Shown: positions 52,386-61,032 of the stretch, piece by piece
Layout: every line of letters starts with the position of its first letter
How positions within the stretch are numbered: the first letter of the stretch is position 1
Source: Candidatus Brocadia sinica JPN1
Lineage (GTDB): Bacteria; Planctomycetota; Brocadiia; Brocadiales; Brocadiaceae
DNA length: 64,000 bases
Assembly: GCF_000949635.1 (NCBI RefSeq)
Contig: NZ_BAFN01000001.1
Location: 1,302,001 to 1,366,000 of the forward strand
Direction of reading: 5' to 3'
The notes under the pieces: generated by a model
The model's database searches: none
Told to the model about the DNA's origin: nothing
The model's input: the letters and a program-made list of their open reading frames with translations, nothing else
Made by a program: the position numbers and the translations under genes

Positions 52386-52622
52386 ATGAAGAAGCAGATG
52401 CCGATGATTATTGAGTTAGAACCAGGTACGTATCAGTGGTGTGCCTGCGGGAATACGAAAAACGAACCGTTCTGTGATGGCTCACACAAAGGAACTGATA
52501 AAGCACCACATATGTTCAAAATCGTACTGAAAAGAAAATATAATATTTGCAATTGCTATTTAACAAAAAATCCACCATTTTGTGATGGTATATGTCGTCG
52601 CGTCAAAATTGCTGAAGCATGA
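52386..52622 (+). CDS. Double CDGSH iron-sulfur protein, second site with His-to-Cys change
   Basis: A 78-residue protein with two CDGSH (mitoNEET-like) motifs. The first is complete: C-A-C-G-N-T ... F-C-D-G-S-H. The second reads C-N-C-Y-L-T ... F-C-D-G-I-C, so the usual His ligand is replaced by Cys, giving a possible 4-Cys [2Fe-2S] site. The standard bacterial double-CDGSH layout is otherwise kept. A GGGGAGG site lies about 13 nt upstream. It is convergent with nrdJ. Confidence 0.9.
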   Translation: MKKQMPMIIELEPGTYQWCACGNTKNEPFCDGSHKGTDKAPHMFKIVLKRKYNICNCYLTKNPPFCDGICRRVKIAEA

Positions 52623-52710
52623 AATTGCAATTCGCAGATAAAATACGGGTAGAGGTAGCCTAATGACGGTGGGAAGAACTTCGAACGGAAGAAGGAAAAT
52701 ATTGTTTTTA

Positions 52711-55020
52711 CTATTTGTACACACCAGGCGAGGCGCTTCCCGGAAGCGATCCTTCCTCCGGATCGATCTCACAGATGTTGCCGAGGCAGGCAGATTCTTT
52801 TGCCCCTGCGGTGGAATCCTCTCTCTCGTATATCACAATATGGGAAAAATCAATCCCTGGAAGATTTTTGGTCCGCATGCAGTATTCATCTGCCGTAATT
52901 TCTTCGTAGGGCGCAAGCTGATATACCGTTTTCGACTTCGGTAAGAATGATAACCCACCAAGTATGTTCCAGTTTTTGTAAAGCCAATGTGCCGTCTCAA
53001 TCCATTCATCATCTGCCACGGAAACAGTGACAGAAGGGTTGTGTTCGGTATAGTTTTCCTTGACCATTTTCCAGTATTCGAGGTGGTCAACAGCACTAAG
53101 ATCTTCCCTTGTTATGCTTCCTTCCGGAGATTGTACAGGAAATTCCAATACATATGTGGTGGCCGTTGCCACATCTTGTCCAACTTCCGGATAGCACGGG
53201 AATTTCTGTTCTTTTAACATGATAAATAACGGATCCTTTGCAGAAATACGGACCCTGCGAATATAATATCTTGCAAAACGCGGGTGCATGCCTGAGGCGG
53301 CATCTACCAGTTGAGAAACCGTTCCGGAAGGCTTAACACAGGTTACTGCGGTAGATGCATTGATACCAAACCGCCGGGCATACATGTGGTTCGTTTCGAT
53401 AGCATGGCCTCTTAATTTCATCAAAATATTTGGATCACGCACTGCAGGGGAATCCCATTGCCCGGTAATAGAGATCCCCAGAAGCCGTTCTTCTTCACAA
53501 TTCATCTTCCACTCCGGTGAGAGATAGGGAAAGTTTGTTAGCATGGATTGGTAGGTACCCAGTATTGAAGCGATCCTGATTTTTTTCAGCAATACTGTTT
53601 CCGTATCGTCCGGACGGGCAACTACCTCGCTCACATTACAAAACTGTTTCGAACGCAGGATTATCTCCCCGCACGGATTGATACCGCTTGTCATCCAGTG
53701 TGTCTCGAATTTCTTCCAGCGACGGGCAGGGACCTGTTTCGGCAGACCGCCACGATTAAACAAACCGCGTTCACCAGTCCCGGCCATTGCCAGGGCGAGC
53801 CACTCTTTCAGAAAATCGGTGGCTTTCGGTTTTGAAATATAAACGGCTGAATTGTTCGCCATCATACGTTGCGGTTCATTAATATAGAAATAGCCGCTCT
53901 TGGCCTGGCGCATGTCATCGTCGTCGAAATCCGATAAAGAAATTAAGGCAGCGCGCCGTACCCCTCCCATCTCTACTACCTCGCCGATCTTGCAGATGAT
54001 ATCATGCACATCGATGTTCCGCAAACGTTTGCCCTGGGCACCGAGGATTTTTGTGCGAGCGTAATCAAGTAAGGACAGAAGTGGCCCCGGGCCGGAACTG
54101 CGCCCACCCATAGTATGCAAACGGGACCCGGCCGGTCTGACCTGTGAGTAATCAAATTGGATATCTTTTCCTTCGTACCAGGCATGCAGTCCGATTTTGA
54201 GTGCATTTGCCCAGCCTTCCTTGCTATCTTCAACTCCATGCAGAGGAAATAATTCTCCCGTTTGCCTTTGAATTATTGGCAGTTGTTGAACATTCTGACT
54301 CTCAACAGAGAAACCTACCCCTACACCAGACATTAAAAGATACATGATTTCAGCCAAATCTTCGAGACGCGAAGGGGCAATGAACGAACAATTGTATGCC
54401 GCAACATTATTTGTCCGGGCGGCTTTGCCAGCTGACCATAAAAGCCGCATGGAGGGCATCACCTGTTGATTCAGGATTGCCTGCCTGATTTCTTCGTATT
54501 CCTGAGGGTTTAAGCGGTCGCTTAAATTTTCCTGCATGAAATGTATGTATCGGTCTACGGTTTCTATCCATGTCTCGCGCCTTCCTTCCTCCTCGATCCA
54601 GCGCGAATACGTCCGGTAATAGATAAATTCGGCAAGGGTGTTGGGGAAATACTTTTTGCTTTCTGCCTCAAGTTGCTTGACCCGGTCAGGAATGGCCAGG
54701 GCCTTCTTGCGGATTTCTGCCCGCTCATACCGATACAGAATATAGGCCTTGGCTGTTTTCGGGAATTCAAGCAGGATCAGTGTCTCTTCAACAAGGTCCT
54801 GAATTTCCTCAACATGTGGAATATGCGTTGCCGGGTAAAGACTGTTGAGCCCTGCTACAACTTCACTGGAAACCCGTATGGGGTCATTTTCCCAATCACC
54901 TTCTTTGCTTGCCTGCATAGCCCGACAGATTGCGTTCGTGATACGTGTCTGATCAAAAGGCACAATTCGTCCGTCCCGCTTTTTGACGTGAGTAAATTTA
55001 TTCTTTCCTGAGCTGGACAT
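52711..55020 (-). CDS. nrdJ: Adenosylcobalamin-dependent ribonucleoside-triphosphate reductase (class II)
   Basis: Reduces ribonucleotides to deoxyribonucleotides with a B12-generated thiyl radical, without O2. The 769-residue monomer is close to Lactobacillus-type RTPR in length. It has an N-terminal ATP-cone (about 12-105), YNCSF (reducing Cys), the thiyl-Cys motif NPCGEI and a C-terminal CX4C pair (SACLGNICE), the analogue of the RTPR redox pair. No cobalamin riboswitch is seen in the 180 bp upstream. Together these fit an anaerobe. Confidence 0.93.
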   Translation of the reverse strand: MSSSGKNKFTHVKKRDGRIVPFDQTRITNAICRAMQASKEGDWENDPIRVSSEVVAGLNSLYPATHIPHVEEIQDLVEETLILLEFPKTAKAYILYRYERAEIRKKALAIPDRVKQLEAESKKYFPNTLAEFIYYRTYSRWIEEEGRRETWIETVDRYIHFMQENLSDRLNPQEYEEIRQAILNQQVMPSMRLLWSAGKAARTNNVAAYNCSFIAPSRLEDLAEIMYLLMSGVGVGFSVESQNVQQLPIIQRQTGELFPLHGVEDSKEGWANALKIGLHAWYEGKDIQFDYSQVRPAGSRLHTMGGRSSGPGPLLSLLDYARTKILGAQGKRLRNIDVHDIICKIGEVVEMGGVRRAALISLSDFDDDDMRQAKSGYFYINEPQRMMANNSAVYISKPKATDFLKEWLALAMAGTGERGLFNRGGLPKQVPARRWKKFETHWMTSGINPCGEIILRSKQFCNVSEVVARPDDTETVLLKKIRIASILGTYQSMLTNFPYLSPEWKMNCEEERLLGISITGQWDSPAVRDPNILMKLRGHAIETNHMYARRFGINASTAVTCVKPSGTVSQLVDAASGMHPRFARYYIRRVRISAKDPLFIMLKEQKFPCYPEVGQDVATATTYVLEFPVQSPEGSITREDLSAVDHLEYWKMVKENYTEHNPSVTVSVADDEWIETAHWLYKNWNILGGLSFLPKSKTVYQLAPYEEITADEYCMRTKNLPGIDFSHIVIYEREDSTAGAKESACLGNICEIDPEEGSLPGSASPGVYK

Positions 55021-55199
55021 AATTGCCTCTATAAACGAGATTGGATTTTAAAAGACAAAAACCCAACAACTTTTTCGGACGAATTGTTGAGGATTTTTTG
55101 GAGTTGAGACGAACAGTACTGCGGAACCGGTTCTATCTCAATCGGCAAAAAAAGAAATAGTATAAGGAATTACCCTATCGGACAATATTGGATACGTCT
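55021..55199. other. Intergenic region upstream of nrdJ
   Basis: About 180 bp between two leftward genes. It holds an imperfect CAACAA/TTGTTG inverted repeat near 55064-55091. No B12-box-like riboswitch core and no ORF were seen. Confidence 0.4.
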
Positions 55200-56120
55200 T
55201 TATTCCATATCCTTTCGATTTGAACTCCTGAATTGTCTTAGTTTTCTCCCTACGTTAAATACGGACAAAAAACGAGGTAAAAATTGACCAAGGATACGAG
55301 AAGAGCCGTTTCCCCTGGAACTTCTAACTTGATTTAAATCAACTTTTTTTCTTGGATCAAAACGATCGACAGGGTCATTAAGGCGTTCATCAATGGGTTT
55401 GACCTGACGATCATCAGAAACAAGAGAAGGATTACTATCTTCGGTTGTTTCCGTACTATTTTTCCTTTTTGAACGGACTCCCACTTTCGCAATGACCTTG
55501 AAATGAAAATTTCTGGCCATTTCCGGTGTAGCGCCAAAGGCAAAGTCCATACAGTCATGATACGACACTATTAAATGAGACAGTTCTTTTAAGCCATCCC
55601 TATCAAAAGAAATAGACGTTAACTCATTTACAGGCAATATCTCAGAAAAGGGTTTTGGCGTTTGAGTTAGTTTTGCAAGCGATTCATCCAACTGGTCAAG
55701 CTTGAAAGAATGGTCTTCCGATGTACGACGCACAATATCATCTGCACCAGAAAAATCTATGCTTCTCCACGTATTTAATATATTCTCACTATCGTAGTTA
55801 GCCAATATCCACGGAAGTATAAACCAGAAATGCCTCCGGTATTCATGCGCAACACTGATCCCCTGCAAGCAGTAAATGTCACGACCATCCTTGTCTTTAT
55901 GGTTTGACAGACCACAACTCACAAGAAATGTCGATTCCGGATGGTTTAAGCAATAGAGAGGCAAAACCGATGATTTGCGAAAGGTGTCTTTGTATTTGTC
56001 ATACATATTGTACAGTTGATTTAATGCCTTAAGGCCATCCAACGACACCTTCTGTGGAACAATCATCCACCGGTAATCTTTGGAAAAGGAGCGGGAATAC
56101 AAGAGTCCTTGATATATCAT
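55200..56120 (-). CDS. Unknown protein coupled to the GTPase, GAP1-N-like
   Basis: The 306-residue protein overlaps the GTPase gene by 4 bp (ATGA), so translation is coupled. Its N-terminal half (IYQGLLYSRSF...GLSNHKDKDGRDIYCLQGIS, with GR at 79-80 and a following His) resembles, by memory, the N-terminal domain of GTPase-associated protein 1 (GAP1-N families) found beside TRAFAC-like GTPases in predicted conflict systems. A C-terminal ~90 residues are basic and low in hydrophobics (RSKRKNSTETTEDSNPSLVS and SSRGNGSSRILGQ) and may be disordered. No catalytic motif is recognised. Confidence 0.6.
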   Translation of the reverse strand: MIYQGLLYSRSFSKDYRWMIVPQKVSLDGLKALNQLYNMYDKYKDTFRKSSVLPLYCLNHPESTFLVSCGLSNHKDKDGRDIYCLQGISVAHEYRRHFWFILPWILANYDSENILNTWRSIDFSGADDIVRRTSEDHSFKLDQLDESLAKLTQTPKPFSEILPVNELTSISFDRDGLKELSHLIVSYHDCMDFAFGATPEMARNFHFKVIAKVGVRSKRKNSTETTEDSNPSLVSDDRQVKPIDERLNDPVDRFDPRKKVDLNQVRSSRGNGSSRILGQFLPRFLSVFNVGRKLRQFRSSNRKDME

Positions 56121-57190
56121 GCGATCCGTCTCACCCTTTCCAGCGCCTTATTGAGAAGCGGTTCGATATGTGGCTCAAACTGACTCAGAACCTCATAATC
56201 CTTGTTTTTTTCCTCTAAAATAGCCCTGGCAACGCTCTCCGCGTCAGGCTTACGTGTGATGAGAGACCAGATTTTATTTACCAGCCCTGCCTTTTTCAGT
56301 ACCTCCGAGAGTTCTTTTTCCCGTTGCTTTATACTCTTGTGGGCCTCTACTTTCATCTGTTTTAATGTTTGCCCCAAACAATAAAATAAGACATGTTCTG
56401 CATTCAGAGGCGCTGGAAATCCAATAATTTTATCCTCAGATTTAAAAGGATGTATCATATCTCCTGTGGGAACAACCGTCCGCCTGGCATTCCCTTCACC
56501 TACTGCAGAGACAGGAACAATACCGCCCTCCCAGGTCGGATTTTGTTTGCACAAAGACACCATCTGATTGAATACCTCCATGCCACGCTCTATCAGGGGT
56601 GCATAATTGTCACTTTTCCACTTGGGGTCAACCGTATCTGCTTTAGTCAGCATAATCACAAATGTTAAGTTTCTATTGGGATACATTCTGCTATAGGTCG
56701 TAAATATCTCATGGATCCTACGGGCTCCAGACCGGTGCCTTGCCTCTTTTATATTCGAATAATATGTTAAGACAAAGGCATCGGCAACCAGGATAACGGC
56801 GTTACTGAGTTCGATATGAGAAGCCAGGTCTGAAATTTCTGATTTTGTTGCCTCTGAAGTATCATTTGTATCAAGGGCATCCGTAATTTCGGTGAGAATA
56901 CCGCCCCTATAATCAATCCAATCAAAGTACGTTACCGGCTTTGAATTATAGTATACCGTAAAAGGCCATACCGTTGTCTGTTGCGTACCATCTGGCCATT
57001 TAAATTTATCGACAAGTGAAAATCTGCTAAAATCACCGACACTCAGTATTGCTTTATCAAATTGTTGTACTGAACGGGGGGCAAGGTAAAAACCCGCATC
57101 ATTTTGACCTGCGTCTCCTAATGTCTCGTAAAGCGAAGACATATAAGTTGTTTTGCCGGAACCTGATACACCAACCATCGTCACTTTCAT
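56117..57190 (-). CDS. P-loop GTPase-like protein of a three-gene cassette
   Basis: The 357-residue protein has Walker A GVSGSGKT at 7-14, a DxxG-like element D93-YRG and the G4 analogue TKAD at 182-185, followed by a VPVSA string. This is a GTPase-type arrangement, resembling the double-GTPase/GTPase-associated-system group named in comparative genomics. The C-terminal ~100 residues are charged and helical (AHKSIKQREKELSEVLKKA). It has no membrane segment. GAGGTG lies about 8 nt upstream of ATG 57190. It overlaps the next gene by ATGA and is preceded by a small two-TM gene. Substrate and output are not known. Confidence 0.75.
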   Translation of the reverse strand: MKVTMVGVSGSGKTTYMSSLYETLGDAGQNDAGFYLAPRSVQQFDKAILSVGDFSRFSLVDKFKWPDGTQQTTVWPFTVYYNSKPVTYFDWIDYRGGILTEITDALDTNDTSEATKSEISDLASHIELSNAVILVADAFVLTYYSNIKEARHRSGARRIHEIFTTYSRMYPNRNLTFVIMLTKADTVDPKWKSDNYAPLIERGMEVFNQMVSLCKQNPTWEGGIVPVSAVGEGNARRTVVPTGDMIHPFKSEDKIIGFPAPLNAEHVLFYCLGQTLKQMKVEAHKSIKQREKELSEVLKKAGLVNKIWSLITRKPDAESVARAILEEKNKDYEVLSQFEPHIEPLLNKALERVRRIA

Positions 57191-57302
57191 ATTTCATTCA
57201 CCTCTCATAAATTATGTAATAATCACATTGTAGTTTTTAATACACAAAAAATTACAAAAAAGATGGTTTTTACAAAGTAAAGCGGCAGTCTTATATCTAA
57301 TA

Positions 57303-57575
57303 CTACACCTTGTTCTTCTGTCTTATCATTTCAATGGCTGCGCCAAAAAATCCACCTATGAACGGCAGCATAAGCGCTAATTTTGAGAAACCAGCAATAA
57401 TCCAGATTGCCACAAAAGCAAAAAAACCTACTATCGCGCCTAAGGAAAATACATAGATAAATTGCTTGGCAGACGGCTGAATTTTACCCGGCGAGTTTTG
57501 CTCTGAGGATTTAGATTCACCCGGGATTAACACTTTTTTGCTCAGTTCTTTATGCCTTTCCATAATGTCTGACAT
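57303..57575 (-). CDS. Small two-TM membrane protein leading the GTPase cassette
   Basis: Not recognised. The 90-residue protein has a ~38-residue polar N-terminus and two hydrophobic segments (about 39-61 and 64-84), with a Gly/Phe-rich second half (LPFIGGFFGAAIEMIRQKNK). GAGGG lies 7 nt before ATG 57575. It begins 112 bp before the GTPase gene and reads the same way, so it is the likely membrane anchor of the unit. Confidence 0.65.
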   Translation of the reverse strand: MSDIMERHKELSKKVLIPGESKSSEQNSPGKIQPSAKQFIYVFSLGAIVGFFAFVAIWIIAGFSKLALMLPFIGGFFGAAIEMIRQKNKV

Positions 57576-57775
57576 TTGATAACCCTCAATATAACTAAAA
57601 ACTTTATATCTTGATTTAAGCCGAATTTTACTCTTCTCATGAGAATTTTACTATTGTCTTAACAATATCTTTCTGACATCCTATACCTGTTTTGTTATAA
57701 TTATCCACAAATTACATCCTTATAATATTACTGAATCAGGTGCTTTTTTGGCAACATTTTTTGTAGTTAATTGAA

Positions 57776-58900
57776 TTAAATGGTTCTTTTAAACGTTACT
57801 ATCGATATGATCATCATTATGATTGTAAAGACTGAAAGGAAGGTAATGTCTGTTGCAATGCTCCTTATATCTGCGCCCTTGAAAAGAATGGTTTTTAATG
57901 CATTCACGGCATACGCCTCGGGATTTATCTTTGCAAATGTCTTAAGCCAATGAGGAAAACTCGCAATCGGATAAACTGCGCCACTGGGGAAAAAAAGTAT
58001 AACATTCAGAAACCCGCTCAATATGCCGACAACCCTGGGATGATTGAACCTGCCAAGAATGACAAACATCAGACTGAGCAGACCAAGGGTAGTGAGAATT
58101 ATAATAATTAATATGCAGATATACTGTCTTACCCCTCTCAAAATAGGAATACCGGTTATCGCCATGCTCATAACAAATACTAAAACAGCAATGGCCGTTG
58201 TAATGAACAGGCCACTTACGATAAGACCGGTTACAATATCCGATTTGGAAAGGGGGGTAAGCAGATAGCTCTCATCGGCGCCGAGAAATCTGTCCATAAC
58301 AAGATTAAAGGCCCCCGTGGTCAGAGTACCCATAAAAATGGCCATGATTACAACACCGGGAACAAGGGACTGATAATAATCCACTTTCCGGTAAAGGTCT
58401 ACATCTCTGAGAAATACCTCATCAGACTTCTCTCTTACAGGGACATAATCGGAATTCATGGCAGCAAGCGCCCCTTTTACCGCAATCCTTATGGCCTCAG
58501 CTGATACACCGTCTGTATTATCAAGAAAGAGACCCACTTCAGGCCTTCTCTTCAAAGAGATGCGTTTACTGAAATCAGAAGGTATGATGAGCCCTGCCTT
58601 ATATCGCCCTTCCCTGACTCCACCGATGGCATCCTTCTGATCCTTGATACTGAAGATTTTTAGGGTCTTCGGTCCGGCTTCAATGGCTCGCAAGTTATCT
58701 ACAAGATCCCTTGAATAAGGGCCCGAGTCCTGATTTACTACCACCACGGTGACGTCCTGCAATTTACCCTGGAATGAATTCCCCAGAAATACAAGATAGA
58801 TAATAGGCATGAAAATGCTCATTGCAAGCACAACCGGATTTCTCCTGAATTTTTTCAAGTCCCTGTCTACAACAGCGAGCAGCCTCATCATATCAATCAT
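57776..58900 (-). CDS. ABC-2 type exporter permease
   Basis: A 374-residue ABC-2 permease of the YhhJ/DrrB type, with one N-terminal TM (about 26-45), a large extracytoplasmic loop (about 46-170; VTVVVVNQDSG) and five C-terminal TMs. Together with the ATPase and HlyD it forms a YbhFSR-like drug or lipid exporter. The ATPase stop overlaps its ribosome site (GGAGGT). I choose ATG 58900 (MIDMMRLL); ATG 58921 lies inside the ATPase frame. The next gene is 200 bp away. Confidence 0.88.
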   Translation of the reverse strand: MIDMMRLLAVVDRDLKKFRRNPVVLAMSIFMPIIYLVFLGNSFQGKLQDVTVVVVNQDSGPYSRDLVDNLRAIEAGPKTLKIFSIKDQKDAIGGVREGRYKAGLIIPSDFSKRISLKRRPEVGLFLDNTDGVSAEAIRIAVKGALAAMNSDYVPVREKSDEVFLRDVDLYRKVDYYQSLVPGVVIMAIFMGTLTTGAFNLVMDRFLGADESYLLTPLSKSDIVTGLIVSGLFITTAIAVLVFVMSMAITGIPILRGVRQYICILIIIILTTLGLLSLMFVILGRFNHPRVVGILSGFLNVILFFPSGAVYPIASFPHWLKTFAKINPEAYAVNALKTILFKGADIRSIATDITFLSVFTIIMMIISIVTFKRTI

Positions 58901-58908
58901 GAATTTCT

Positions 58909-59919
58909 CTACCTCCCCCATTTCTGGGGTGTTCCTGCTCCTACAAGGAAGCTCACCTTTCTGGCTTCTTCTTCCCGTATCGATTTGCCGGTATAATGAA
59001 TAAAGACGTCCTCAAGGGATTGTTCATGGATAGCGGCCGATAAAACCTTTCCTCCTGCAGATTTTATTTCCTCTATGAGCATGGGAAGGTTCTGCGCACC
59101 GCTGTCAACGTAAACCCTTATCGTATTATTTTCAAGAGTAACTCCATGTGCATATACCAGATTCTTTACCCTATTGATGATACTCTCGGAAAGATTTTCA
59201 ATCGTAAGAGAAACGATATCATTCCCCGGTATCCGTGATTTAAGCTCTCCGGGGCTTCCAAGCGCTATTATTTTTCCCGAGTCGATAATGGCAACCCTGC
59301 TGCATAGGGCCTCTGCTTCCTCCATATAATGAGTGGTAAGAAAGACGGTCATCGTATCTTCTTCCCTGAGCTTTCTCAGAAAATCCCAGACAACATGTCT
59401 GGACTGTGGGTCAAGCCCTAAAGTCGGTTCGTCTAAAAAGAGTATCTCAGGCCTGTGTACAAGCACCCTTGCAATTTCAAGTCTCCTTCTCATACCTCCT
59501 GAATATGTTGCAACAAGGTCATGCGCCCTTGCCATCAGGCCAACTGTTTCAAGAAGATAACCGATCCTCTCCTTCCTTTCCTTTGAAGAAACGCCGTAGA
59601 ATCGTCCATAAATATCCATATTTTCGTAGCCAGTAAGATCAAGATCGCTCGTCATTGCCTGGGGGACAACACCAATATGGTGTCTCACAGCATCAGGTTT
59701 TTTCACGACGTCATATCCCGCTATCCTGGCATTACCGCTTGTAGGTTTAATGAGTGTGGTAAGCATTCTGACAAGCGTTGTCTTTCCGGCTCCATTTGGG
59801 CCAAGAAATCCGAATATTTCGTCCTCAATCACATCAAAACTTACGTTAGCTACAGCAATAATCGGCCCGTATTTCTTTGTTATTCCGGAGACTTCTATGG
59901 CCTTTCTCTCTTGAACCAT
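58909..59919 (-). CDS. ABC exporter ATPase, DrrA/CcmA type
   Basis: The 336-residue ATPase has Walker A GPNGAGKT at 40-47, signature YSGGMRRRLEIAR, Walker B ILFLDEPTLGLDP and H-loop FLTTHYMEEAE. The DrrA-type C-terminal domain (about 225-310) is present. It works with the adjacent ABC-2 permease. HlyD upstream completes the exporter, with 45 bp between the genes. Confidence 0.93.
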   Translation of the reverse strand: MVQERKAIEVSGITKKYGPIIAVANVSFDVIEDEIFGFLGPNGAGKTTLVRMLTTLIKPTSGNARIAGYDVVKKPDAVRHHIGVVPQAMTSDLDLTGYENMDIYGRFYGVSSKERKERIGYLLETVGLMARAHDLVATYSGGMRRRLEIARVLVHRPEILFLDEPTLGLDPQSRHVVWDFLRKLREEDTMTVFLTTHYMEEAEALCSRVAIIDSGKIIALGSPGELKSRIPGNDIVSLTIENLSESIINRVKNLVYAHGVTLENNTIRVYVDSGAQNLPMLIEEIKSAGGKVLSAAIHEQSLEDVFIHYTGKSIREEEARKVSFLVGAGTPQKWGR

Positions 59920-59964
59920 TTTATATCCTTTTAGACCTTCAACATTTGTTCTTTCTCTAAAATT

Positions 59965-61032
59965 TTAATTCACTTCCTGTTTTGTCCCTGGCTTGTCCGG
60001 GATAAATATTTTTGCTTCAGCCGTCATTCCCGGTTTCAGGAATCCGGTCGGGTCGTCTACCGTAATTTTAACTCTGAATGTCTTTATATCCTGCCTGCCC
60101 CGTAATACATCCCGTTGTGTTGCAAATTCGGCGTACCTTCCTATCTCTGAAACCTTACCTTTAAATGTTCTGTCGGAAGCCCTTTCTGTTCTAATAATTG
60201 CTTCACCATTAAGGGTAATATTGCCAATCAAGGTTTCCTCTATATCTACCCTCACATAGAGGTTATTCAGATCAACAATCGTTAAAATTGTCGTACCCGG
60301 TGTTACCATCTCACCTTTCTCCGATGCCTTGAAAACAACTATCCCCGATAGAGGACTTTTTATTATGGTGTCTGCGTACCTGGCTTGGTTATATGATAAA
60401 TTGGCCTCCGACTCCCTGAGGCCAGCCTTGGCATATTTTAGCTGGCTTTCAGCCGTATTTAATTGCGCAGTAGTGACATTCCTTTTTGCATATGCCGCTG
60501 TGAGTTTTGCTTTTGAAGATACATAGCTAGCAACTGCTGTTTCATAATTGGCAACAGCAGTGTCACGGGATTCCTCTGAGACGGCTTCACGCTCGTAAAG
60601 CGCTTTTGCCCTGTCCATCTGCCTTTTTGTCTCCCCCATCTGAACCCGGTTTTTCTCCACATCTGCTGCGGCACTTTTTATTTCTGCATCGGCATTTGCA
60701 ATATTTGCCTTTGCACTCTCAATGGCCGCTTCTGAAACACGGACTTCGGCATTTGCCTTCTCAACTCCGGCAAATGCCTGCATTACCGATGCCCTGAAAT
60801 CTTTAGCCTCAAGTGTAATGACTCTATCACCTTTCCTGACTGCATCACCTTCTTTACAGCATATGGAGGAAATTCTACCAGGTACCTTTGTAGAAATATT
60901 GACCTCTATACCTTCAACAATACCGACTGTCCTGAGAAACCCGGCTCTCCTGCTCTTTTTTGTATAGAAAATAATTAAGACTGCTGTGATTATCACAAAG
61001 GCAATAGCAAAATAAACAAATCGTCTCTTCAT
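59965..61032 (-). CDS. HlyD-family membrane fusion protein
   Basis: Periplasmic adaptor of the exporter. The 355-residue protein has a signal-anchor TM (about 5-23), a lipoyl-like domain (STKVPGRISSICCKEGDAVR) and a long Ala/Lys-rich coiled coil (about 85-210), then a barrel region (IIKSPLSGIVVFKASEKGEM) and C-terminal MP domain. It is the first gene of the operon HlyD-ATPase-permease. No outer-membrane factor is next to it. Confidence 0.9.
   Translation of the reverse strand: MKRRFVYFAIAFVIITAVLIIFYTKKSRRAGFLRTVGIVEGIEVNISTKVPGRISSICCKEGDAVRKGDRVITLEAKDFRASVMQAFAGVEKANAEVRVSEAAIESAKANIANADAEIKSAAADVEKNRVQMGETKRQMDRAKALYEREAVSEESRDTAVANYETAVASYVSSKAKLTAAYAKRNVTTAQLNTAESQLKYAKAGLRESEANLSYNQARYADTIIKSPLSGIVVFKASEKGEMVTPGTTILTIVDLNNLYVRVDIEETLIGNITLNGEAIIRTERASDRTFKGKVSEIGRYAEFATQRDVLRGRQDIKTFRVKITVDDPTGFLKPGMTAEAKIFIPDKPGTKQEVN

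Follow-up and report, generated by a model that had tools for sequence, protein, structure and literature searches.

Does a compact GTPase cassette in the 4.08 Mb genome of a Candidatus Brocadia strain belong to a reduced conflict system, or does it encode a conserved switch that operates without effectors? Anammox bacteria are bacteria of the nitrogen cycle that possess an internal compartment, and longin proteins are used by cells to control GTPases on membranes. We analysed the cassette within a stretch of 64,000 nucleotides, referred to here as the window, in which the following features were annotated:

57303-57575, minus strand: ORF of a two-TM protein, 90 aa, with a conserved N-terminus (MSDxIERHKELSK)
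56117-57190, minus strand: ORF of a P-loop GTPase, 357 aa, with GVSGSGKT, DYRGG, TKAD and PVSA
55200-56120, minus strand: ORF of the GTPase partner, 306 aa, with a predicted longin-like N-terminal domain
56117-56120, minus strand: ATGA stop/start overlap that couples the GTPase and partner genes
Partner residues about 1-125: predicted longin-like domain
Partner residues about 166-212: second, small α/β part
Partner C-terminus: disordered basic tail (residues 216-306 with pLDDT < 50)

The ORF coordinates agree with the original prediction, which described three leftward genes in a tight unit with an ATGA overlap between the GTPase and its partner. The 90-aa gene lies upstream and ends 112 bp before the GTPase start, and an ATGA-type overlap of the other two genes is kept in most relatives, including G350, a genome of the same order but a different family.

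Distribution and genomic setting of the cassette

When searched for in up to 392 Planctomycetota genomes, the GTPase was found in 17 genomes of Brocadia's own family, with Brocadia, Jettenia, Loosdrechtia and Kuenenia as the named relatives, and in G350. Two additional weak matches from these searches proved to be other P-loop proteins. The G350 proteins, a GTPase of 335 aa and a partner of 295 aa, share 35% and 25% identity, respectively, with the window proteins, and their genes overlap by four bases. A scan of genome contigs beyond the phylum, for which we used strict peptide patterns that may miss other phyla, returned Brocadiales only. The pair was present in nearly all examined Brocadia, Jettenia, Loosdrechtia and Kuenenia genomes, as a single copy per genome, and in the window no second GTPase lies adjacent to it. 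The GTPase frame is broken in two assemblies, the B. carolinensis draft and G248, in the latter near codon 36 (L108 5342-7921 and L019 7832-8903), and in the B. carolinensis draft the two-TM frame also appears shifted; sequencing error and decay are indistinguishable as causes of these GTPase frame breaks.

Comparison of all flanking ORFs of 13 loci from six genera and two families revealed that the GTPase and the partner were the sole ORFs common to all six genera. The two-TM gene occurred in three genera only (Brocadia, Jettenia and Loosdrechtia) and was absent from Kuenenia and G350. Since nothing but the GTPase and partner genes recurs in all six genera, we conclude that the core consists of two genes, not three: co-occurrence across relatives, originally suggested as a check on all three genes, was borne out for the Brocadiaceae, but the two-TM gene is clade-specific and there is no three-gene core. 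Nearly all other flanking ORFs were confined to a single genus, and the flanks of the cassette differ between genera. The adjacency of partner and GTPase in 13 of 13 loci, together with the purifying selection described below, confirms that the cassette is more than a chance arrangement.

We also compared the occurrence of the pair with that of hydrazine synthase alpha, represented by PF18582 (PMC12758564). The latter was present in all 12 pair-bearing genomes tested, and all seven tested genomes without it also lacked the pair. However, 13 genomes carried hydrazine synthase alpha and not the pair, which rules out that the pair tracks anammox metabolism as a strict rule. In the sampled genomes the pair is limited to the anammox lineage, and anammox is possible without it. 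One genome of the Kuenenia genus, G228, which is rated 100% complete, contained neither hydrazine synthase alpha nor the GTPase pair.

In the window, the neighbours of the cassette are ribonucleotide reductase, ABC transporter, MiaB and methyltransferase-like genes. An operon encoding HlyD, an ABC-ATPase and an ABC-2 permease (window 57776-61032) lies between MiaB and the cassette, and none of the compared relatives carries it at this site. As the original prediction had noted, no large effector genes adjoin the cassette, and inspection of its window neighbours identified no FNIII/GASH component, effector or defence gene. A PADLOC scan of the cassette gave nothing above P-loop-level matches, NCBIfam and PHROG scans yielded only P-loop or spurious matches, and PDB sequence searches with the cassette proteins produced no useful match. 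Promoter-like and terminator-like sites of the cassette showed no excess over shuffled sequences.

Relationship of the GTPase and its partner to DO-GTPases and GAP1

The motifs identify the 357-aa protein as a P-loop GTPase, and hydrolysis of GTP would be expected of it. The motifs originally read from the translation (GVSGSGKT at 7-14, D93-Y-R-G and TKAD at 182-185) are exact, and across 16 members, one of which comes from another family of the order, residues G7, S9-T14, D93, R95, G96, G97, T182, K183 and D185 are invariant, such that the G1, G3 and G4 motifs are all fully kept. Pfam PF19993 (DO-GTPase2) matched the GTPase with 27.9 bits at a cut-off of 27, with an alignment restricted to the P-loop region (residues 3-46). 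As a broader comparison set, we assembled twelve DO-GTPase-type proteins from other Planctomycetota, most of which adjoin GAP1 genes. HHalign aligned the GTPase family with these DO-GTPases over 214 columns (Prob 96.6, P 6e-10, score 75.9), while a null in which the P-loop was kept and the columns after it were shuffled reached 52.2 ± 1.6, with a maximum of 60.7. Ordinary GTPases of the same genome scored far below the anammox GTPase in this comparison, and the match survived removal of the closest sequence. Most of the signal was contributed by the more divergent DO-GTPases; the ones found alongside canonical GAP1-N2 proteins matched the anammox GTPase at the P-loop only. Of the DO-GTPases tried as single sequences, the one that matched the anammox GTPase family best was a short DO-GTPase1/2-like GTPase (L107 1365-2117, G118:C200) with no evident GAP1 gene alongside.

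DO-GTPases are defined with a conserved Walker B glutamate, DxxGE (PMC7159879), and those of other Planctomycetota have GE at this position. In contrast, the anammox sequence is DYRGG, with Gly97 invariant in all 16 members, and because the Walker B position is Gly in every member we regard the GTPase as a relative of the DO-GTPases rather than as a member. Zinc ribbons at the N-terminus (60%) or a paired second GTPase (38%) accompany DO-GTPases, neither being obligatory; here the P-loop starts at residue 7, leaving no zinc ribbons, and there is no paired GTPase. The placement of the protein near the DO-GTPases, proposed earlier together with a profile check against Pfam, was upheld by the PF19993 match and the 214-column alignment, and profile comparison shows the GTPase to be a divergent relative of this family. 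No MglA-like profile matched it, and its AlphaFold model was of low confidence (pLDDT 43.7).

The relationship of the partner to GAP1 is less clear-cut. In 14 aligned rows R80 is invariant and G79 is present in all but one, and DYRW at 15-18 is likewise invariant. Of the GR motif at 79-80 followed by a conserved-looking His that had been likened to GAP1 N-terminal domains, the GR is present but His92 varies among close relatives. Searching 12 partner members with hmmscan against Pfam gave no GAP1 match, a PF20013 search of the own genome missed the partner gene, and global hhalign of the partner against GAP1-N2 was uninformative. Profile-profile comparison with GAP1-N2 gave a marginal score of 20.8 (P 0.0098), which was reached in none of 200 column shuffles and in none of 32 decoy comparisons. 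The register is collinear; in a fuller alignment YS/TS is preserved where strand 1 ends and the GR motifs come to lie near each other. By eye, GAP1-N2 sequences can be read in the order β-β-α-β-β-β, the GR lying between the fourth and fifth strands. GAP1 comprises an N, an M and a C domain, all three globular, whereas the 306-aa partner has by its size no GAP1-M/C and is folded, at confident or moderate level, only in residues of about 1-125 and 166-212; the His pair that follows GR in GAP1-N2 is absent. The assignment of the partner as GAP1-N-like is accordingly left with a marginal profile-profile signal (P about 0.01) and no profile match in 12 members. An assembly labelled Brocadia, with contamination of 4%, contains a canonical GAP1-N2 protein as a 595-codon frame (L145, G378:C136:46878-47282), which belongs either to a second system or to a contaminating contig.

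The AlphaFold model of the partner, built from a 12-sequence alignment (mean pLDDT 60.7), is of fair quality over residues of about 21-110 and 168-212 and poor elsewhere. In the 21-110 part, the order of elements is β-β-α-β-β-β-α, which is the longin order. With this model, Foldseek found TagF as the only match below 0.001 (E 5e-4). TagF was also the best fold match of a second structural aligner (Z 7.5 over 182 residues), followed by a Lokiarchaeota longin (Z 6.5), and further matches included Sec22b, sedlin, GATOR1, Lst4, C9orf72-SMCR8, TRAPP and Mon1-Ccz1 chains. Longin chains dominate these matches with Z of 4 to 6.5, although values of Z < 8 may reflect just a common arrangement. The model suggests that the N-terminal domain of the partner is longin-like. 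The TagF family in Pfam did not match any of the 12 members, and a literature search for a connection of longin domains to TagF or to anammox yielded no relevant work. Longin domains are established as binders of GTPases and as relatives of MglB-type regulators (PMC3521125).

Could the GTPase instead be an unrelated TRAFAC/P-loop NTPase and the partner a protein non-homologous to GAP1 or longin, with a likeness that is convergent or an artefact of thin alignments? The missing Walker B glutamate, the confinement of the PF19993 match to residues 3-46, the P-loop-only match of the DO-GTPases that accompany GAP1-N2, the lack of a GAP1 match in hmmscan and the middling structural Z of the partner would all fit this explanation. 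We nonetheless consider it unlikely, given that the DO-GTPase match exceeds the P-loop-keeping null and persists without the closest sequence, that the gene order mirrors DO-GTPase then GAP1, and that the partner signal lies above 200 of 200 shuffles and 32 of 32 decoy comparisons.

Selection, apparent block exchange and predicted membrane features

Within Brocadia, omega of the GTPase was 0.023-0.032, as compared to 0.07-0.15 for MiaB and ribonucleotide reductase. The partner (0.20-0.31) and especially its tail (0.3-0.6) gave higher values, and the partner and the two-TM protein evolve fast. An omega of the GTPase below that of ribonucleotide reductase and MiaB is what would be expected of a conserved switch and not of a component of an arms race.

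Relative to the nearest relative, L016, dS was 0.71 for the GTPase, 0.82 for the partner and 1.06 for the two-TM gene, as opposed to 0.29, 0.29 and 0.32 for the flanking methyltransferase-like, reductase and MiaB genes, with separate confidence intervals for cassette and flanks. Nucleotide identity was about 92% within the reductase gene but fell to roughly 55% or lower at either edge of the cassette (window 52600-57900 versus L016 3760-9200), and the intergenic edges were nearly unalignable. This dS step and the drop in identity are most simply read as a swap of all three genes, as one block, between close relatives. A second relative, L022, showed no dS step against all of its flanks, so the block exchange rests on one genome pair. 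Such an exchange is unusual for a housekeeping switch. Flanks that differ in every genus and the dS step against L016 would also be expected of a mobile or selfish cassette spread by recombination and devoid of a host role, but the very strong purifying selection on the GTPase, the single copy per genome, the lack of an integrase or transposase inside the cassette and its presence in nearly all examined genomes of the four named genera make this highly improbable.

The 90-aa protein contains two hydrophobic segments within about residues 37-84. Pfam, searched with E up to 10, returned only an irrelevant E1-E2_ATPase match (E 0.23), and the SLATT profile was unmatched. The protein is a clade-specific accessory, likely for membrane docking. 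Every partner tail is basic, with a net charge of +6 to +15, and in a test for amphipathic helices a single member surpassed its shuffles at the 1% level. As Kuenenia and G350 lack the two-TM gene, membrane attachment may not be general.

These data bear on the original reading of the cassette as a reduced GTPase-centred conflict system, in which an invader would be detected by the GTPase and a GAP1-like partner, and these would then trigger either the two-TM protein, as a small pore effector, or an effector encoded elsewhere. SLATT-type two-TM pore effectors occur in such systems (PMC7159879), the partner gives a marginal GAP1-N2 signal and evolves fast, as does the two-TM protein, and the relation of the GTPase to the DO-GTPase family and the apparent block exchange between close relatives leave this explanation some weight. 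It is weakened by the lack of an effector, GAP1-M/C, FNIII/GASH or zinc-ribbon parts, by PADLOC matches at P-loop level only, by neighbours such as ribonucleotide reductase and MiaB, by the absence of the putative pore gene from Kuenenia and G350, and by a single-copy GTPase with an omega of about 0.03. With a GTPase more constrained than its housekeeping neighbours and no defence context, the conflict-system reading was not supported, and we judge it unlikely.

A candidate GTPase switch and its likeness to known systems

We favour, at roughly an even chance, a stand-alone, membrane-associated switch composed of a GTPase and a longin-like regulator, which by descent would be sister to the DO-GTPase/GAP1 pair but operate without effectors. 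In this model, the co-translated 306-aa protein would bind the GTPase through its predicted longin-like domain and serve as a non-enzymatic regulator or platform, by analogy with MglB, TRAPP and Ragulator subunits and their GTPases. DYRW (15-18) and R80, located at the predicted strand 4/5 turn, are the likeliest contact or GTPase-activating residues. The switch may be held at the membrane by the basic tail of the partner, joined in the Brocadia clade by the two-TM protein, and GTP loading could assemble or localise something there. A wider proposal, which we put forward as doubtful, is that GAP1-N, the partner, TagF and longin share one GTPase-binding fold, giving a second, non-Ras bacterial GTPase-longin lineage with an effector-free anammox membrane switch; longin and roadblock go unmentioned in the study in which DO-GTPase/GAP1 was defined (PMC7159879). 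If the favoured model is correct, the DO-GTPase/GAP1 core can exist outside conflict systems and would be available as a minimal two-protein form open to biochemical testing, GAP1-N-like partners would gain a concrete fold hypothesis, and organelle-bearing bacteria would possess a strongly conserved GTPase switch.

Among known systems, DO-GTPase/GAP1 (PMC7159879; PF19993, PF20013) likewise places a partner gene after that of a P-loop GTPase, the GTPase profiles align over 214 columns and the partner N-terminus is marginally similar to, and collinear with, GAP1-N2. The anammox cassette differs from these conflict systems in having no Walker B Glu, zinc ribbons, GAP1-M/C, FNIII/GASH or effectors. 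TagF, a type VI secretion accessory, matches the predicted fold over nearly the whole globular part of the partner, although identity is 7-18% and no type VI genes lie beside the cassette. The longin regulators TRAPP, Mon1-Ccz1, GATOR1 and C9orf72-SMCR8 and the Lokiarchaeota longin share the predicted topology (Z 4 to 6.5), but the partner has no detectable sequence similarity to them (2-16% identity in aligned rows). MglA-MglB pairs a Ras-like GTPase with a roadblock GAP, whereas the anammox GTPase is of another lineage and its partner is larger than MglB, has the longin instead of the roadblock order and carries a long basic tail; what the two systems share in their working logic is a bacterial GTPase whose gene adjoins that of a small, non-enzymatic partner of longin/roadblock type.
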